From Methylomonas sp. LL1 (GTDB taxonomy: Bacteria; Pseudomonadota; Gammaproteobacteria; Methylococcales; Methylomonadaceae): DNA of 64,000 nt. The stretch spans positions 3,038,001 through 3,102,000 of the forward strand of contig NZ_CP064653.1 in NCBI RefSeq assembly GCF_015711015.1, written 5' to 3'. A model generated the notes under the pieces. That model saw only the letters and a program-made list of their open reading frames with translations. It was not told the origin of the DNA and did no database searches. Below, piece by piece: positions 4,041 to 21,009 of the stretch; positions within the stretch are counted from its first letter, which is position 1; each line of letters opens with the position of its first letter. The translations under genes and the position numbers were made by a program.

Positions 4041-5477
4041 ATGACATCAATCAACATCCAACAAATGATGGCCGACAGCGGCGTGGCATTCGGCACCAGC
4101 GGTGCGCGCGGACTGGTCAGCCAAATGACCGACCAGGTTTGCGCCGCTTACACGTTGGCTTTTCTGCGGGGACTCAATCTGGCCAAACCGGGGCAAAAAA
4201 TCGCCTTGGGCATGGATTTGCGCCCTTCAAGTCCCGCCATCGTCCGCGCCTGCGCCGCCGCTATTCGCCAGGCCGGTTGCGAGGTGGATTTCTGCGGCGC
4301 ATTACCGACACCGGCCTTGGCTTACCATGGCTTAACCCAAGGCCTGCCGGCAATCATGGTAACCGGTAGTCATATCCCGTTCGACCGCAACGGCATCAAG
4401 TTTTATCGGGCCGAAGGCGAGATCAGCAAGGCCGACGAAGCGGCTATCACGCAGGCCACGGTCGAATTAGCGGACTTCAATGACGACGGCGTCATGCCTA
4501 CCATCAACCCGGAAGCCTTGGATCATTACAAACAACGCTATACCGGCCTGTTTGCTCCCGATCTGTTGCAAGGCTGGCGCATCGGCATTTACGAACATTC
4601 CAGCGTAGCCCGGGATTGTTTGCGCGACATCCTGAGCGCATTGGGCGCCGAGGTGATCGGCCTGTCCCGTACCGATACCTTCGTGCCTATCGACACCGAA
4701 GCCGTCAGCGAAGAAGACCGCCAGCGCGGTCTGGCCTGGGCCAAGGCTCATCAATTGGACGCGATCATCTCCACCGACGGCGACGGTGACCGGCCACTAA
4801 TTGCCGATGAAACCGGCACCTGGCTGCGCGGCGATATTGTAGGTTTGCTGTGTGCGCATTTTTTAGGCGCGGATACCGTGGTGACCCCGGTCAGCTGCAA
4901 TACCGCGATCGAAGCCTCGGGCTTGTTCAAACAGGTACTGCGCACCCGTATCGGTTCGCCGTATGTGATTGCCGGCATGGAACAAGCCGAGGCCGGCGGC
5001 AAGGCTATAGCCGGCTTTGAAGCCAATGGCGGTTTTCTGGCCGGCAAGGGCTTGCGGGTAGCGGACCAAATAGTAGCGGCGTTACCCACCCGCGATGCGG
5101 TTTTACCGGCTCTGGCGCTGCTGGCAATGGCCAAACGGCAAGGCATCAAGCTATCCGAGTTGAGCGCCGGCTTACCCAAACGCTACACCGCTAGCAACCG
5201 TCTGCAAAACTTTCCGGTTGACGACAGCCAAGCTCTGCTGAAACGCTTACAAAACGACGACACGGCCTATCAAAGCCTGTGGGGAACGGAACTGGGCGCG
5301 ATTTCCGAAACCGACTTGACCGACGGCCTGCGACTGACCTTTACCAACGGCGAAATCGTGCATCTGCGCCCATCAGGCAATGCACCTGAGCTGCGATGCT
5401 ACGCCGAAGCCGACAGCATGTCTCGGGCACAAGCACTGGTTGACCTCGGTTTGCAACGTATCGCGCAACGATCGTAG
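4041..5477 (+). CDS. phosphomannomutase/phosphoglucomutase family enzyme
   Basis: An alpha-D-phosphohexomutase that would interconvert hexose 1- and 6-phosphates. The phosphoserine loop reads TGSHIP with S110 as the likely phospho-acceptor (the usual form is TASHNP). The magnesium loop is DGDGDR at 246-251, the sugar-binding loop is EANGGF near 330, and the C-terminal phosphate-binding loop is RPSGNAPELR near 445. All four active-site elements are present. The TGSHIP variant is slightly unusual, and substrate choice (mannose, glucose or glucosamine phosphate) cannot be fixed from motifs. It starts 56 nt after the yjgR homologue. Confidence 0.85.
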   Translation: MTSINIQQMMADSGVAFGTSGARGLVSQMTDQVCAAYTLAFLRGLNLAKPGQKIALGMDLRPSSPAIVRACAAAIRQAGCEVDFCGALPTPALAYHGLTQGLPAIMVTGSHIPFDRNGIKFYRAEGEISKADEAAITQATVELADFNDDGVMPTINPEALDHYKQRYTGLFAPDLLQGWRIGIYEHSSVARDCLRDILSALGAEVIGLSRTDTFVPIDTEAVSEEDRQRGLAWAKAHQLDAIISTDGDGDRPLIADETGTWLRGDIVGLLCAHFLGADTVVTPVSCNTAIEASGLFKQVLRTRIGSPYVIAGMEQAEAGGKAIAGFEANGGFLAGKGLRVADQIVAALPTRDAVLPALALLAMAKRQGIKLSELSAGLPKRYTASNRLQNFPVDDSQALLKRLQNDDTAYQSLWGTELGAISETDLTDGLRLTFTNGEIVHLRPSGNAPELRCYAEADSMSRAQALVDLGLQRIAQRS

Positions 5478-5548
5478 AATTAATGTTCAGTTAAGAATCC
5501 TTGATGTACTCTGTATCCGCACCAACCACTTAACACGAGGACTGATTC

Positions 5549-5974
5549 ATGAATAACAAAATCATATTATTGACTTCATTAGTGTTTGCTTCCAGCATGG
5601 CGTTTGCCGAAACCTCTTTGCTAGAAGCCGCGGGTAAACAATTTGCCAAGGACAAAGCGGCGGAAGTTGCGCCAGACGCAGTGAAAAATGTCGAAGCTGC
5701 CGGTAACGCCGTCGATAGCGCTAAAGCCGTCAAAAGCGCGGCGGAGACAGCACCCGAGGCCGTTACCGGCCAAGCTCGGGATGCGGTGAAAAAAGCAGCC
5801 GAGGAAGAGGTTAAACAAGCCGTGCCGGCCGAAGCCTCCCAGGTGGTAGACACCGTAAAATCCAGCAAGGCCGCGGTTAAAGCCGCGCCAACATCCACCG
5901 GCGAAGCCGTGGATACCGTAAAAGACAAAGCCACTCAGAAAGCAACCGAAAAAGCATTGGATATGCTGCGCTAG
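5549..5974 (+). CDS. exported Ala/Lys/Glu-rich helical protein
   Basis: Unrecognised protein of 141 residues. It has a clear Sec signal peptide with a likely cut after AFA (about residue 20). The mature part is low-complexity, rich in Ala, Lys, Glu and Val with no Cys, Trp or Tyr, and contains repeated EAVDTVK/VVDTVKSSK-like units with roughly 11-residue periodicity. That pattern resembles amphipathic LEA-like or lipid-surface helices. It is a single-gene unit with a strong intrinsic terminator immediately downstream. The mature protein is probably periplasmic; function unknown. Confidence 0.7.
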   Translation: MNNKIILLTSLVFASSMAFAETSLLEAAGKQFAKDKAAEVAPDAVKNVEAAGNAVDSAKAVKSAAETAPEAVTGQARDAVKKAAEEEVKQAVPAEASQVVDTVKSSKAAVKAAPTSTGEAVDTVKDKATQKATEKALDMLR

Positions 5975-12329: not shown

Positions 12330-15300
12330 CTAGGCCTCTCCGAGATAGCGTTTATCCAAGCCGTTTTCCCGGAATGATGTAATGTAAATGTAACTGGTAC
12401 GGGGATCCTCTGCCAACTCGGCCAAACTGAATTGGCGTTTCGGCTGGCTAGGGAAATCGATTTTGTCGATATTTTGGTTAACGTCCCGAAAACCCATGCT
12501 CCATTCCGGAAAAATCCGGTGATACTCGTTACCCTGCATGATGATAGTGAGATTGCAATGGCGAGGATCTTTTTTGATGAGTTCGAGCAGATTCAGTACC
12601 TTAGTCCGCTCGCCCTCCAGATATTGCATGAAATACCCCTGCTGGTGCAGCAGACAACCGGTGATACCCTTGCTACTGTTGGCCGAGCGGGTCTGTTTCA
12701 ATAATTCGGGGATTTGGTTTTTATCCAGGGCCGGCGTGGCCTGACTCGAGTAGAGCAGGAAAAACAGCGGTGGTTCGGGTGTAGTTTCAGCATTTTTGAG
12801 CGATTGCTCGACCGCCTCGACGAATTGGACTTCTTCCAACGGACGATAAAATAAATACCCTTGTATGTAATGGCAGCCGAAGTTACGCAACTCCAAAAGC
12901 TGCGAACGGTTTTCCACGCCTTCCGCCACCATCTTTAAACCCAATGCCCGCCCCAAACCGATAATAGCCCTAACCACCGCGCGGCTTTCAGGCTGCTTTT
13001 CGATGCCATCGACAAAAGCCCGATCGATTTTCAGGACGTTGACCGGCAGCCGAGTCAATTGTGCCATCGACGAGTAACCGGTGCCAAAATCGTCGACGGC
13101 GACCCGAAACCCCATATTCGCCAAACTGCGTAAAACACGCAGATTGGTTTCGATATCCGCCATCAACGAGGTTTCGGTGACTTCCAGCAGAATCCGCGAC
13201 GGGTCGGCATCATAGTAACTGATAGTGCGCAGGATATCGCCGATCAGGCTTTCCTCGTTCAATTGGCGGGCCGATACATTGACCGAAATATAAGCCGGCG
13301 CCTGTTCACCCCAGCGCCGACGCCATTCGGCTTCGGCACGGCAGGCCTGGGCAAATACCCAAGCCCCGATAGGGACTATGCTACCGGTCATTTCCGCAAT
13401 CGGAATAAATATACCCGGTGAAATTTCGCCCTCGGCGGGATGCCAACGCAATAACAATTCGGCGCCCATAATCCGGTTGTTATCAGCATCCACGATGGGT
13501 TGAAAGCGGACGGATAATTCTTGGCGTTCGATGGCAAGGCGCAGACCAAGGGTGATCGATAACTTTCTTTTGACTTTTTCTTCCAGGCTGCTGCTGAAAA
13601 AATGCCAGCCATCCCGGCCTTGTTGTTTGACTTCGTACATGGCGGTATCCGCCGAACGCAGTAAATCGTCGGTCGAATGAGTAGAGCCATGGCCCACGGC
13701 GATGCCGATACTGGCGCTGGTATAAAGCACTTGTCCATTACATTCGACCGGTTGGCGCATGGCCTGATTGATTCTTTCCGCCAACTGGGAGATCAGGGTG
13801 GGTTGTTCCAGTTGTTCGCACATAATCACGAATTCGTCGCCCGATAATCGCGCGACCGTATCGCCGGGACGGACCATGTCGATCAGCCTGTTTGCCATGG
13901 TTTTCAGCAAACCGTCGCCGGTTTCGTGGCCGTAAGTATCATTGATCAGCTTGAAACCATCCAAGTCGACAAACAATAAAGCCAGACTCAAGCCTTGCCG
14001 CCGGCTACGTTGCAGGGCATGGTCCAGGCGTTCGCGAATCAGATTGCGGTTCGCTAGTCCGGTCAGCGCATCGTGGGTGGCCTGCCAGAGCAAATCGGCT
14101 TGATTGCGTTTTTGCTCACTAATGTCGCGCATGGTGGCCACCAGCATCCATTGTTCGCCGTTGTGGAACTTGCCGATAGAGGCCTCGACCGGGAAGAAAG
14201 AACCGTCCTTGCGATAGCCCATCACCTCGTTACGCCGAGACATGGGGAGCTCGGTTTCCGAGCCTTGCACAAAGCCGCGCACCATCTCCGCGTGGCGTTG
14301 CCGTATATGCGGCGGCACCAATAAGTGTACCGACATACCCCGCATTTCCTCGCCGCTGTAACCGAACATGGCGCAGGCGTTGGGATTGGCCTGCTGAATG
14401 GTGCCGTTCTCATCGGTGGACAAAATCGCCATATCGGCAATCGACAGAATTTGATGCGCGGTGTTCATTTTGCGTAGGCTGGCCTCCGCTTCGGCCTTGA
14501 CCTGTTCGAGCAGGGTCGACGAGACTGAAATTTGTTGAGATTCTTGGATTTGGCTTTTGTAACGCTTGGGGATTTGCGGCGGGTTGTTGCCAAAACGCTC
14601 GATAATGCTAAAACCGCCATCTCGATTACTGCGCGCCAGAAAGGTGTTGACGCAGGCGTGGTGGGTTTTGGCATCCATCTGTACCCAGCCTTGCGGTGCC
14701 AGCACGCTGCTGTGTTCCAGGGCCTCAACCAGCGCTTCGGCATCGGTACTGCCGGCCTTTTGCGCGGCTTCGGCAAAGGCCCGGACACATAAATAGGTCG
14801 CCTCGCTAAAATTGGTTACTACTCCGTTGCCATGCGGCCATATGCCGTTCACGCCCGGCATGGTTGCCAGTTGTTGCAAGTAAAAATGGTTTTGCGGGGT
14901 GTCCAGCGACATGAAATAAGTGTTGCTGGAATAAAAGCCTTCCCTCACTTCCGGCAATAATTGTTGCGCCAAGGTTTCGTCGTAATGCCCCATAACCACC
15001 GCCATGCGCTGTTTCAGGCCCATTGCGCTGAAACGATTCAGCAAGGCGATCTGATCTGCACCGGCGAAATAAGGTACAAACACATCGGCGCCGGAACGGG
15101 CCAGCTGTTGCAATAACTGTTCGATTTGGAGCGAATCGGCATTGATAGGCAGATATTCCTCGCCGACCACGTCGCCGTCCAGTCGGCTCAGCGCCTGTTT
15201 GGCTGCGTCGATCGAGCCGCGTGGCCATTCGTAATTACTGCCGGCAAAAAACATTTTCAAGCCAAAGCGTTGCGCCATGGCCGGAATCATCTTCTCGATT

Positions 15301-15689
15301 TGTTGATTGGGAAGCGCCGCAAAATGAAAAAAATAGCGGCCGGCTATACTACCTTCGTAAAAGGAGAAATTCAGATAGGGGATTTTTAACCTTTCCGCCA
15401 CTTGATTGGCGACGGCAATACGTGAATTGGATAGCAAATTACCTATCATCGCCACGCAATGATGGCTGTTGACCAATCGCAACGCGGCCGGCACCGCTGT
15501 GGCCGGTTGGCTGCCGTCGTCCTCGACAATCAGTTCCAACGACTTCCCCAGGACCCCGCCGCTTTGATTGATTTCGTTACAGGCAATCTGCGCGGCCCGG
15601 ATGATCTCGGTACCATACATGCTCACCAATCCGGTTAAGGGTGACATCAAGCCAAGGCGTACGGTTTTTGTAGTGGACTGATCGGACAC
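12330..15689 (-). CDS. periplasmic-binding-protein/PAS/GGDEF/EAL/BLUF sensor protein
   Basis: Five-module c-di-GMP protein of 1119 residues. About 9-380 is a Leu/amide-binding-protein fold (AmiC-like, RLGLMSPLTG...) without a signal peptide or transmembrane segment, so it is probably cytosolic. A PAS domain follows at about 415-530. The GGDEF domain has SGDEF at 616-620. The EAL domain has E744 in ELL and D866-D867 in DDFGTGYSS, with the downstream Lys and Glu ligands present, so phosphodiesterase activity is plausible. A C-terminal BLUF domain has Y980, N1004, Q1022 and W1063, with the same spacing as Y21, N45, Q63 and W104 of AppA. It would couple a small ligand and blue light to c-di-GMP turnover. 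The start is GTG with no obvious Shine-Dalgarno. Confidence 0.9.
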   Translation of the reverse strand: MSDQSTTKTVRLGLMSPLTGLVSMYGTEIIRAAQIACNEINQSGGVLGKSLELIVEDDGSQPATAVPAALRLVNSHHCVAMIGNLLSNSRIAVANQVAERLKIPYLNFSFYEGSIAGRYFFHFAALPNQQIEKMIPAMAQRFGLKMFFAGSNYEWPRGSIDAAKQALSRLDGDVVGEEYLPINADSLQIEQLLQQLARSGADVFVPYFAGADQIALLNRFSAMGLKQRMAVVMGHYDETLAQQLLPEVREGFYSSNTYFMSLDTPQNHFYLQQLATMPGVNGIWPHGNGVVTNFSEATYLCVRAFAEAAQKAGSTDAEALVEALEHSSVLAPQGWVQMDAKTHHACVNTFLARSNRDGGFSIIERFGNNPPQIPKRYKSQIQESQQISVSSTLLEQVKAEAEASLRKMNTAHQILSIADMAILSTDENGTIQQANPNACAMFGYSGEEMRGMSVHLLVPPHIRQRHAEMVRGFVQGSETELPMSRRNEVMGYRKDGSFFPVEASIGKFHNGEQWMLVATMRDISEQKRNQADLLWQATHDALTGLANRNLIRERLDHALQRSRRQGLSLALLFVDLDGFKLINDTYGHETGDGLLKTMANRLIDMVRPGDTVARLSGDEFVIMCEQLEQPTLISQLAERINQAMRQPVECNGQVLYTSASIGIAVGHGSTHSTDDLLRSADTAMYEVKQQGRDGWHFFSSSLEEKVKRKLSITLGLRLAIERQELSVRFQPIVDADNNRIMGAELLLRWHPAEGEISPGIFIPIAEMTGSIVPIGAWVFAQACRAEAEWRRRWGEQAPAYISVNVSARQLNEESLIGDILRTISYYDADPSRILLEVTETSLMADIETNLRVLRSLANMGFRVAVDDFGTGYSSMAQLTRLPVNVLKIDRAFVDGIEKQPESRAVVRAIIGLGRALGLKMVAEGVENRSQLLELRNFGCHYIQGYLFYRPLEEVQFVEAVEQSLKNAETTPEPPLFFLLYSSQATPALDKNQIPELLKQTRSANSSKGITGCLLHQQGYFMQYLEGERTKVLNLLELIKKDPRHCNLTIIMQGNEYHRIFPEWSMGFRDVNQNIDKIDFPSQPKRQFSLAELAEDPRTSYIYITSFRENGLDKRYLGEA

Positions 15690-19228: not shown

Positions 19229-20524
19229 TCACTGTGACGCTAATTGCGGGAGAAACCAGGTACTCAGCCACGGCACATAGGTAATGATAAACACCGCGAG
19301 CAACAGCATCAGCATGAACGGCAAGGTGGCCTTATACAGTTCCGTGATGGATTTATTGAAGCGATAGCTGGCGATAAACAGGTTCATGCCCACCGGCGGG
19401 GTCAAATAGCCGATTTGCATGTTGGCCAGGAAGATGATGCCCAGATGAATCGGATGTATGCCGTAACCGATCGCAATCGGCACGATCAACGGCACCACGA
19501 TCACCAGCGCCGAGAAAATATCCAAAATGGCACCCAACACCAGCAAGAACAGGTTCAACAACAGCAAAAAACTGATTTTACTGTCGATGTGCGCCTTAAC
19601 CCAGTCAAACAACCGCATCGGCACTTCGGCGTCGATTAGGTAATTGGTAAAGGCCATCGACACGCCCAAAATCAGCAGGATGCCGCCCAGCATTTGCATG
19701 GCGTCAGTTACTACCTTAGTCAGGTTGGCGAAGCGGATTTCCCGGTAGACAAACATCTCCACCACCAACACATACAGCGCGGTAGCGGCCGCCACCTCGG
19801 AAATAGCCAAATAACCGCCGAAAATCCCGCCGACGATGAACAGCGGCAGCGGCAATTCCCAGGCTATGGCTTTTATCGCCGCGAAGGCCTCGGCCCAGTT
19901 GAACTCGGTTTTGTCCAGTTCGACATGGCGATTGGCCCACAAGGCCCAGACCGACAGCAGAGCGATCATCAATAGCGTAGGCAGCAACCCTGCCATGAAT
20001 AGTTCCGGCAAGGTGAATTTTTCGCCGATGTTGATCTGCTGCACAATGACACCGTACAAAATCAACGGCACCGACGGCGGCAATAACAGTCCCAGGCTAC
20101 CGGAAGTGGTAACCAAGCCCAGGCTAAATTTAGCGTCATAGCCTTCCTTGACCAGTACCGGCAACAACAAGGCACCCAAGGCGATAATGGTCACGCCGGA
20201 GGCCCCGGTAAACGCGGTAAAGGCGGCGCAAGTCAACAATGAGATGACGGCCAGTCCAAACGGCATCCAGCCGAACAAGGCGCGCGTCAGACGCAACAGG
20301 CGCTCCGAGGTATTACTCTCGGATAATAAGTAACCCGCCAGAGTGAACAAGGGTAGCGCGACCAGCAACGGTGTGTTGGCGATGCGGTATAACTCGGCGG
20401 TGATCACCGTTAAATCGATTTCGGCGCTGTAAAAACCCAGCATGGTTGCCGCCAGGATCACCGCAAACAACGGCGCCCCCAGAAGCAACATCAAGACCAG
20501 CAGTATCGCAAAAGCAAGAGTCAT
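19229..20524 (-). CDS. dctM: TRAP transporter large permease, DctM
   Basis: Membrane subunit of a tripartite ATP-independent periplasmic transporter, which imports organic acids or similar solutes using an ion gradient. 431 residues with about a dozen hydrophobic segments. Typical features are LPLFTLAGYLLSES, the FTGASGVTI segment near residue 105 and GLLLPPSVPLILYG near 155. It overlaps dctQ by 4 nt (ATGA), and a disrupted SirB-type gene follows 3 nt after its stop. The substrate cannot be read from the sequence. Confidence 0.93.
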   Translation of the reverse strand: MTLAFAILLVLMLLLGAPLFAVILAATMLGFYSAEIDLTVITAELYRIANTPLLVALPLFTLAGYLLSESNTSERLLRLTRALFGWMPFGLAVISLLTCAAFTAFTGASGVTIIALGALLLPVLVKEGYDAKFSLGLVTTSGSLGLLLPPSVPLILYGVIVQQINIGEKFTLPELFMAGLLPTLLMIALLSVWALWANRHVELDKTEFNWAEAFAAIKAIAWELPLPLFIVGGIFGGYLAISEVAAATALYVLVVEMFVYREIRFANLTKVVTDAMQMLGGILLILGVSMAFTNYLIDAEVPMRLFDWVKAHIDSKISFLLLLNLFLLVLGAILDIFSALVIVVPLIVPIAIGYGIHPIHLGIIFLANMQIGYLTPPVGMNLFIASYRFNKSITELYKATLPFMLMLLLAVFIITYVPWLSTWFLPQLASQ

Positions 20525-21009
20525 CGGTTCGGATTCGAAGGTTCGGCCATCAGTGCGGCGGCGCCGTAGCGCAAGGCGATGACGACAAAGGCAAACGGGA
20601 TGATGGCTTCACACCACCAATTGGGAATCTCGGCGAATGCCTTGTCTCCATAGGCGTATTCCCGCATCACGAAGTCGCCGCCAAACCAAGCACCGGCAAA
20701 ACAGATCAGCGCGGTCAAGCCGTCGCTGATCCGTTGACCCAGTGTTTTCCATCGGCCAGGTAAGCGTTGTATCAAAATATCGATAGCGATATGGCCATGT
20801 TGGCGACTGGCGATCATCGCTCCTATCATCGCAATCCACAGCACGCTGATGCGGGTATAGGCATCGGCCCACAGCAAACCACCGCCTAAAAAATTGCGCA
20901 TCAGAATTTGAGCAACGGCGATCAAAATCAGCGATATTAGGATCATCACCAGCAGTAGGGTTTCGGCCTTTAGCAGCAGTTGATGCAGTTTTGCTAGAAC
21001 ACTCATCAT
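20521..21009 (-). CDS. dctQ: TRAP transporter small permease, DctQ
   Basis: Small membrane subunit of the same TRAP transporter, 162 residues with four hydrophobic segments. The segments WADAYTRISVLWIAMIGAMIA and HIAIDILIQRLP are characteristic of DctQ. It forms the membrane complex with DctM. The gene sits between dctP (2-nt gap) and dctM (4-nt overlap). Confidence 0.9.
   Translation of the reverse strand: MMSVLAKLHQLLLKAETLLLVMILISLILIAVAQILMRNFLGGGLLWADAYTRISVLWIAMIGAMIASRQHGHIAIDILIQRLPGRWKTLGQRISDGLTALICFAGAWFGGDFVMREYAYGDKAFAEIPNWWCEAIIPFAFVVIALRYGAAALMAEPSNPNR

Follow-up and report, generated by a model that had tools for sequence, protein, structure and literature searches.

A five-domain protein of Methylomonas sp. 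LL1 as a predicted three-input c-di-GMP enzyme

A stretch of 64,000 nucleotides from Methylomonas sp. LL1 (contig NZ_CP064653.1, positions 3,038,001 to 3,102,000; hereafter the window) contains a gene whose product combines three putative sensory domains with the two enzymatic domains of cyclic dimeric guanosine monophosphate (c-di-GMP) turnover. A first-pass annotation of the letters had placed an AmiC-like binding domain, PAS, GGDEF, EAL and BLUF in one protein at 12330..15689. These coordinates are right, the gene lies on the minus strand, and Pfam finds all five domains in the order Peripla_BP_6, PAS_9, GGDEF, EAL and BLUF, every match being above its cut-off (Table 1). The open reading frame (ORF) runs from a GTG codon at 15689 to a stop at 12330, and frame 1 of the plus strand is interrupted across the same interval by numerous stops. 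The database copy of the protein (P0001) begins at Met24, has 1096 amino acids and would lose the first beta strand; the longer form, initiated at GTG, is the more probable one, because 98 of 120 aligned rows begin at query residue 1–7.

Table 1. The gene and its domains, in positions of the window
Feature	Position	Strand	Details
Whole gene	12330..15689	minus	1119 amino acids; GTG start; stop codon counted in
Peripla_BP_6 (AmiC/UrtA-like) ligand-binding domain, residues 9–358	14616..15665	minus	Pfam E 1.1e-66
Linker, residues 379–418	14436..14555	minus	low model confidence; no hydrophobic segment
PAS domain, residues 421–525, probable heme type (H466, R486)	14115..14429	minus	Pfam PAS_9 E 5e-15
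GGDEF domain, residues 537–693	13611..14081	minus	Pfam E 1.8e-48; SGDEF 616–620; I-site R607-P-G-D610
EAL domain, residues 716–950	12840..13544	minus	Pfam E 3.4e-71; nine checked catalytic/metal-site residues present
BLUF domain, residues 975–1066	12492..12767	minus	Pfam E 7.9e-28; Y980, N1004, Q1022, W1063
C-terminal tail, residues 1067–1119	12333..12491	minus	modelled helices 1089–1092 and 1096–1104

The protein belongs to a conserved family that has evolved in a modular manner. Among 8000 database candidates scored, 1006 proteins matched at an E-value of 1e-3 or better, and all five domains are present in 116 of the best 120 proteins listed (own copy included), the BLUF domain being missing in four. 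A search with the binding domain alone added proteins with the same core but without BLUF, and one histidine kinase. A set of 161 aligned rows comprises 125 proteins with the full order, 32 running from the binding domain to EAL, two without the binding domain and two ending after GGDEF; the 32 were assigned by alignment occupancy and include some truncated proteins and, through misalignment, the kinase P0157. Members from Gallionella, Sideroxyarcus, Rhodocyclaceae, Azoarcus, Marichromatium and a Myxococcota metagenome-assembled genome rule out the family being an oddity of Methylomonas. The earlier statement that the N-terminus carries no signal peptide agrees with Kyte-Doolittle hydropathy over the 161 rows, in which the top 19-residue mean reaches 1.50 for the N-terminus and 1.48 for the linker between binding domain and PAS, no dedicated signal-peptide predictor having been applied. 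Stretches of at least 1.6 occur somewhere in 119 of these rows; their centres fall in EAL (95 rows), PAS (33) and GGDEF (23), and in no row in the N-terminus, the binding domain or the linker.

Catalytic residues of the core were counted in 149 rows, i.e., the 161 minus 12 (odd or truncated C-termini, the kinase P0157 and two proteins in which the binding domain is missing). The EAL domain has E744, N804, E836, E839, D866, D867, K887, E923 and Q943, which we take to be catalytic or metal-binding, and the GGDEF domain has the metal-binding D575 and the RPGD I-site; the checked EAL residues and the I-site are retained in every one of the 149 rows or in 148 of them. The first position of the GGDEF motif is Ser or Ala in 145 of the 149 rows, and G617 is replaced by Ser or Ala in nine of the 125 BLUF-bearing rows. 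Given the first of these substitutions, cyclase activity is possible rather than certain, and given both it may be weak or regulatory only. The proposal that ligand, PAS and light converge on both synthesis and breakdown of c-di-GMP is supported in part.

In the reading that we favour, with a probability of roughly 0.55, the protein is a soluble, cytosolic and probably dimeric c-di-GMP enzyme that would integrate three inputs. The AmiC/UrtA-fold domain would close on a small cytosolic molecule, the FixL/DosP-type PAS domain would bind heme and sense oxygen or redox state, and the C-terminal BLUF domain would bind flavin and sense blue light. All three would act on the GGDEF-EAL core, in which the I-site and the residues for c-di-GMP hydrolysis are present, and the net output would most likely be that of a phosphodiesterase, whose activity ligand and oxygen would set through the N-terminal domains and blue light would raise through the C-terminal one. 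Beside the GGDEF substitutions and the points on heme given below, the following weighs against this picture: the structure model of the full protein has a predicted template modelling score (pTM) of 0.41 and therefore does not predict the arrangement of the domains, and the gene neighbourhood gave no clue to the ligand, since clustering of the ORFs of 28 loci (a few genomes included twice) produced clusters present in at least three loci that were all confined to Methylomonas loci, the gene itself excepted.

The PAS domain is probably a heme domain of the FixL/DosP type, sensing oxygen or redox state. Its best matches among solved structures are FixL (1.2e-11), then DosP. H466, aligned with the proximal heme His of FixL, is present in all 160 rows (the 161 without P0157) and R486 in 157, always 20 positions later. 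The heme PAS domain of E. coli DosP (Ec DOS), which feeds a c-di-GMP phosphodiesterase as is predicted here, coordinates heme axially through H77 and holds O2 with R97, at the same spacing of 20 (PMC4263535). In 33 other PAS domains of the same genome (taken from 30 loci around PAS_9 matches and filtered for coverage), His occupies the aligned column in six, and both His and Arg are aligned in one; in a smaller sample, of ten loci with 12 PAS matches outside the family, one match contained the His-19-Arg string. The fuller string R..H-19-R occurs in 22 of 26 c-di-GMP members read from genomes and in 14/14 of those with BLUF. LOV-type light sensing by this domain was ruled out, the cysteine motif searched for being missing.

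A less likely alternative is a c-di-GMP enzyme controlled by light and ligand, in which the PAS domain is a dimerising relay without heme. PAS domains sitting between a sensor and GGDEF can serve as relays, and the FixL match is moderate. We dropped the structure ranking as proof of heme, since a control PAS domain without the aligned His (L016) also matches DosP first, so that the case for heme comes down to the His/Arg pair; a second control (L012) matched 3ewk ('Sensor protein'), many histidine-kinase PAS chains and LOV proteins, and a short control piece (L018) gave zero PDB matches. Several further points count against heme. The bare His-19-Arg spacing is not specific, being found somewhere in four of the 33 genome PAS domains and within residues 376–530 in 10 of 19 kinase forms of the family. 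The exact string is missing from four c-di-GMP members (L023, L050, L052 and L053, none with BLUF, L050 being cut by a contig end), so a heme input, if real, would not be universal. Finally, the invariant Met483 lies at +17 from H466, whereas the distal Met95 of DosP lies at +18 from its His, and the sixth heme ligand may therefore differ from that of DosP. Against a mere relay stand the near-invariance of the aligned pair in the family and its rarity in the genome. In addition, R..H-19-R occurs in the first PAS domain of 0/19 kinase forms (in L054 it appears in full in the second PAS domain), and signal relay from the same binding domain therefore does not depend on it.

The first 380 residues had been assigned a periplasmic-binding fold, and the two-lobed fold of the AmiC/UrtA type was indeed recovered. 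The nearest structural relatives are urea-binding (UrtA) and amide-binding (AmiC) proteins, at 22–27% identity, and the NCBIfam UrtA model TIGR03407 matches with 159.1 bits, below its cut-off of 492.75. Given these relatives, the domain could sense urea or short amides and couple nitrogen supply to c-di-GMP, the more so as S122, E146 and Y190 of UrtA are retained as S87, E112 and Y153; we nevertheless regard this as improbable. The hydrogen bonds of UrtA to urea are made by S122, Q144, Y190 and N246 (PMC10392092), and two of these four positions differ here, Q144 and N246 being aligned with F110 and A209 (the former depending on gap placement). W120, Y141 and F192 of UrtA are likewise replaced, by L85, N107 and W155. 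The replacing residues are themselves near-invariant, L85, N107, F110 and W155 occurring in 29/29 sequences and A209 in 28/29 (this count omits three loci, one of them the copy in the window and two of them duplicates, and includes four added rows). A pocket so constant and so unlike the urea site suggests that the ligand is probably a single conserved small cytosolic metabolite other than urea. From AmiC, the amide sensor of Pseudomonas, and from UrtA, the domain also differs in being fused to an enzyme.

The same binding domain is found with other outputs. A genome search with this domain at E 1e-60, a query free of output-domain bias, detected the family in 11 of the 369 class-level genomes searched and in 18 of the 398 phylum-level ones, the two samples overlapping and both counting the own genome. 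Besides the protein of the window, 28 members were sorted into 16 histidine kinases, six GGDEF-EAL proteins without BLUF, three with BLUF and three truncated or cut off, using a kinase profile built from four of those kinases themselves. Pfam detects kinase ATPase domains in all six kinase forms submitted to it (L031, L032, L034, L051, L054 and L056), three of them among the 16. In one genome (G484), the binding domain occurs on both a GGDEF-EAL enzyme (L085) and a histidine kinase (L098).

These distributions bear on the possibility that light is the sole live input, with PAS acting as a relay and the binding domain as a cap that is structural or vestigial, in a phosphodiesterase resembling BlrP1 or BldP with extra domains. 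Light-activated BLUF phosphodiesterases are established (PMC8846402), and the BLUF residues are intact in our protein. We judge this possibility somewhat less probable still than urea sensing: the binding domain also serves histidine kinases, and the 24 rows, out of 149, in which BLUF is lacking still keep the binding domain, PAS and the EAL residues. Moreover, over 600 random pairs of BLUF-bearing rows, pairwise identity averages 75.7% for the binding domain, 67.8% for PAS, 76.2% for GGDEF, 74.8% for EAL and 49.8% for BLUF; the binding domain is thus conserved like the enzyme domains, and BLUF is the fastest changing of the five.

The BLUF domain matches its Pfam model with 96.9 bits against a cut-off of 25. 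As the first-pass annotation had stated, Y980, N1004, Q1022 and W1063 have the spacing of AppA (24, 18 and 41), their counterparts there presumably being Y21, N45, Q63 and W104; the match range with AppA is also of the same length on both sides (22–113 and 12–103, a comparison of range lengths only). In the 116 BLUF-bearing rows of the 120-row alignment, Tyr and Gln are present in all and Asn and Trp in 115, suggesting that photochemistry is under selection wherever the domain has been retained. The tail that follows, with its modelled helices, is probably the BLUF helical cap, by analogy with other BLUF proteins. In a weakly resolved BLUF tree (97 columns; eight duplicate loci left out), 29 family BLUFs, including two whose proteins lack the binding domain, are separated from 20 non-family BLUFs found in related genomes with a support of 94 in the Shimodaira-Hasegawa-like approximate likelihood ratio test (SH-aLRT). 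That BLUF was added by chance and is non-functional and decaying, as its rapid change and its absence from many relatives might suggest, is very improbable given these near-invariant residues and this separation.

In a FastTree phylogeny of the core without BLUF (149 rows), BLUF presence switches at least 16 times, 13 of them forced by supported branches. An IQ-TREE phylogeny of 55 rows (the query, 32 random BLUF rows and 22 rows without BLUF, with five further long-branch rows left out) gave 11 switches, seven of them forced. One BLUF fusion followed by repeated loss fits best; trees alone cannot separate loss from gain.

At the genus level, a near-full-length match with BLUF is present in nine of 37 genomes, own included; among the nine, the match in G027 is missing its first 41 residues in frame, and that in G011 was flagged for one internal TAG. 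One further genome (G019) has a form that stops after EAL. In G027 (L002, about 4735–5911), the start of the binding domain (~44 residues) is encoded in a different frame at a distance of ~1.2 kb, as if an insert had split it from the remainder. The 4.9 Mb genome of strain LL1 contains 47 EAL, 146 PAS_9 and three BLUF matches, and the gene is therefore one part of a large c-di-GMP network; the other two BLUF matches sit in open frames of 150 and 159 amino acids. Other BLUF fusions were observed in related genomes. A protein of 292 amino acids from the Methylomonas group (L103, 1501–2379, G013) joins BLUF to a PsiE (phosphate-starvation-inducible) domain, and BLUF frames of nearby length occur in G014 and G016. 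A frame of ~1258 amino acids, 837 of them inside the locus (L119, 769–3279, minus strand, G021), has a cyclic nucleoside monophosphate (cNMP)-binding domain, BLUF and a weak match to pyridine-nucleotide oxidoreductases, with BLUF frames near this length in G003, G027 and G046. Elsewhere in the window, the genes at 19229–21009 resemble, judging from their translations, membrane parts of what we take to be a TRAP-type transporter; homologues lie near the sensor gene in six loci, window included, all of the Methylomonas group.

Among known systems, DosP has two PAS domains and is not known to carry a binding domain or BLUF, and the NCBIfam DosP model matches residues 526–953 at 3e-110, below its cut-off. 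Klebsiella BlrP1 and E. coli YcgF (BLUF-EAL) likewise have BLUF adjoining EAL; BlrP1, a light-activated phosphodiesterase (PMC8846402), differs in having only two domains, with BLUF N-terminal rather than C-terminal. BldP of Allochromatium vinosum and Magnetococcus marinus appears in a table of the same review as a BLUF phosphodiesterase raised by blue light (PMC8846402). It resembles our protein, for which we infer a net phosphodiesterase activity, and could belong to the same family; compared by description only, it is the strongest candidate for a relative that has been studied before. A family member (P0123) comes from Marichromatium, presumably of the same bacterial family as Allochromatium. 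RmcA of Pseudomonas aeruginosa also combines a periplasmic-binding-clan domain with light sensing in a c-di-GMP phosphodiesterase, but its domain is of another family (SBP_bac_3) and light acts through PAS, BLUF not being used; according to that review, SBP_bac_3 is the only family of the clan studied in c-di-GMP networks, where BLUF is rare (PMC8846402). In a 2014 survey, short proteins make up 64% of those with BLUF and proteins with EAL 34%, and one BLUF-GGDEF/EAL protein is listed for Methylomicrobium alcaliphilum (PMC4844311); BLUF with GGDEF-EAL has therefore already been noticed in methanotrophs. We found no description of the five-domain architecture among the open papers covered, most subscription papers being outside the reach of our search, and within that scope it is new, although built from known kinds of domains.

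More broadly, and tentatively, at somewhat less than even odds, the family may represent a cytosolic solute-binding module with one conserved ligand that has been swapped onto c-di-GMP enzymes and histidine kinases. Here it would have been joined to heme oxygen and blue-light sensors, so that one soluble protein, in hosts including methanotrophs and Gallionella-type iron oxidisers, would weigh metabolite, oxygen and light in a decision on c-di-GMP. The natural versions with and without light input, together with those with kinase output, make the role of each input separable, and the constancy of the pocket suggests a single signal yet to be discovered, one that is accessible to biochemistry. 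If the three inputs do act together, blue light and oxygen would be tied to a cytosolic metabolite in one enzyme, which would also offer a starting point for optogenetic c-di-GMP tools.
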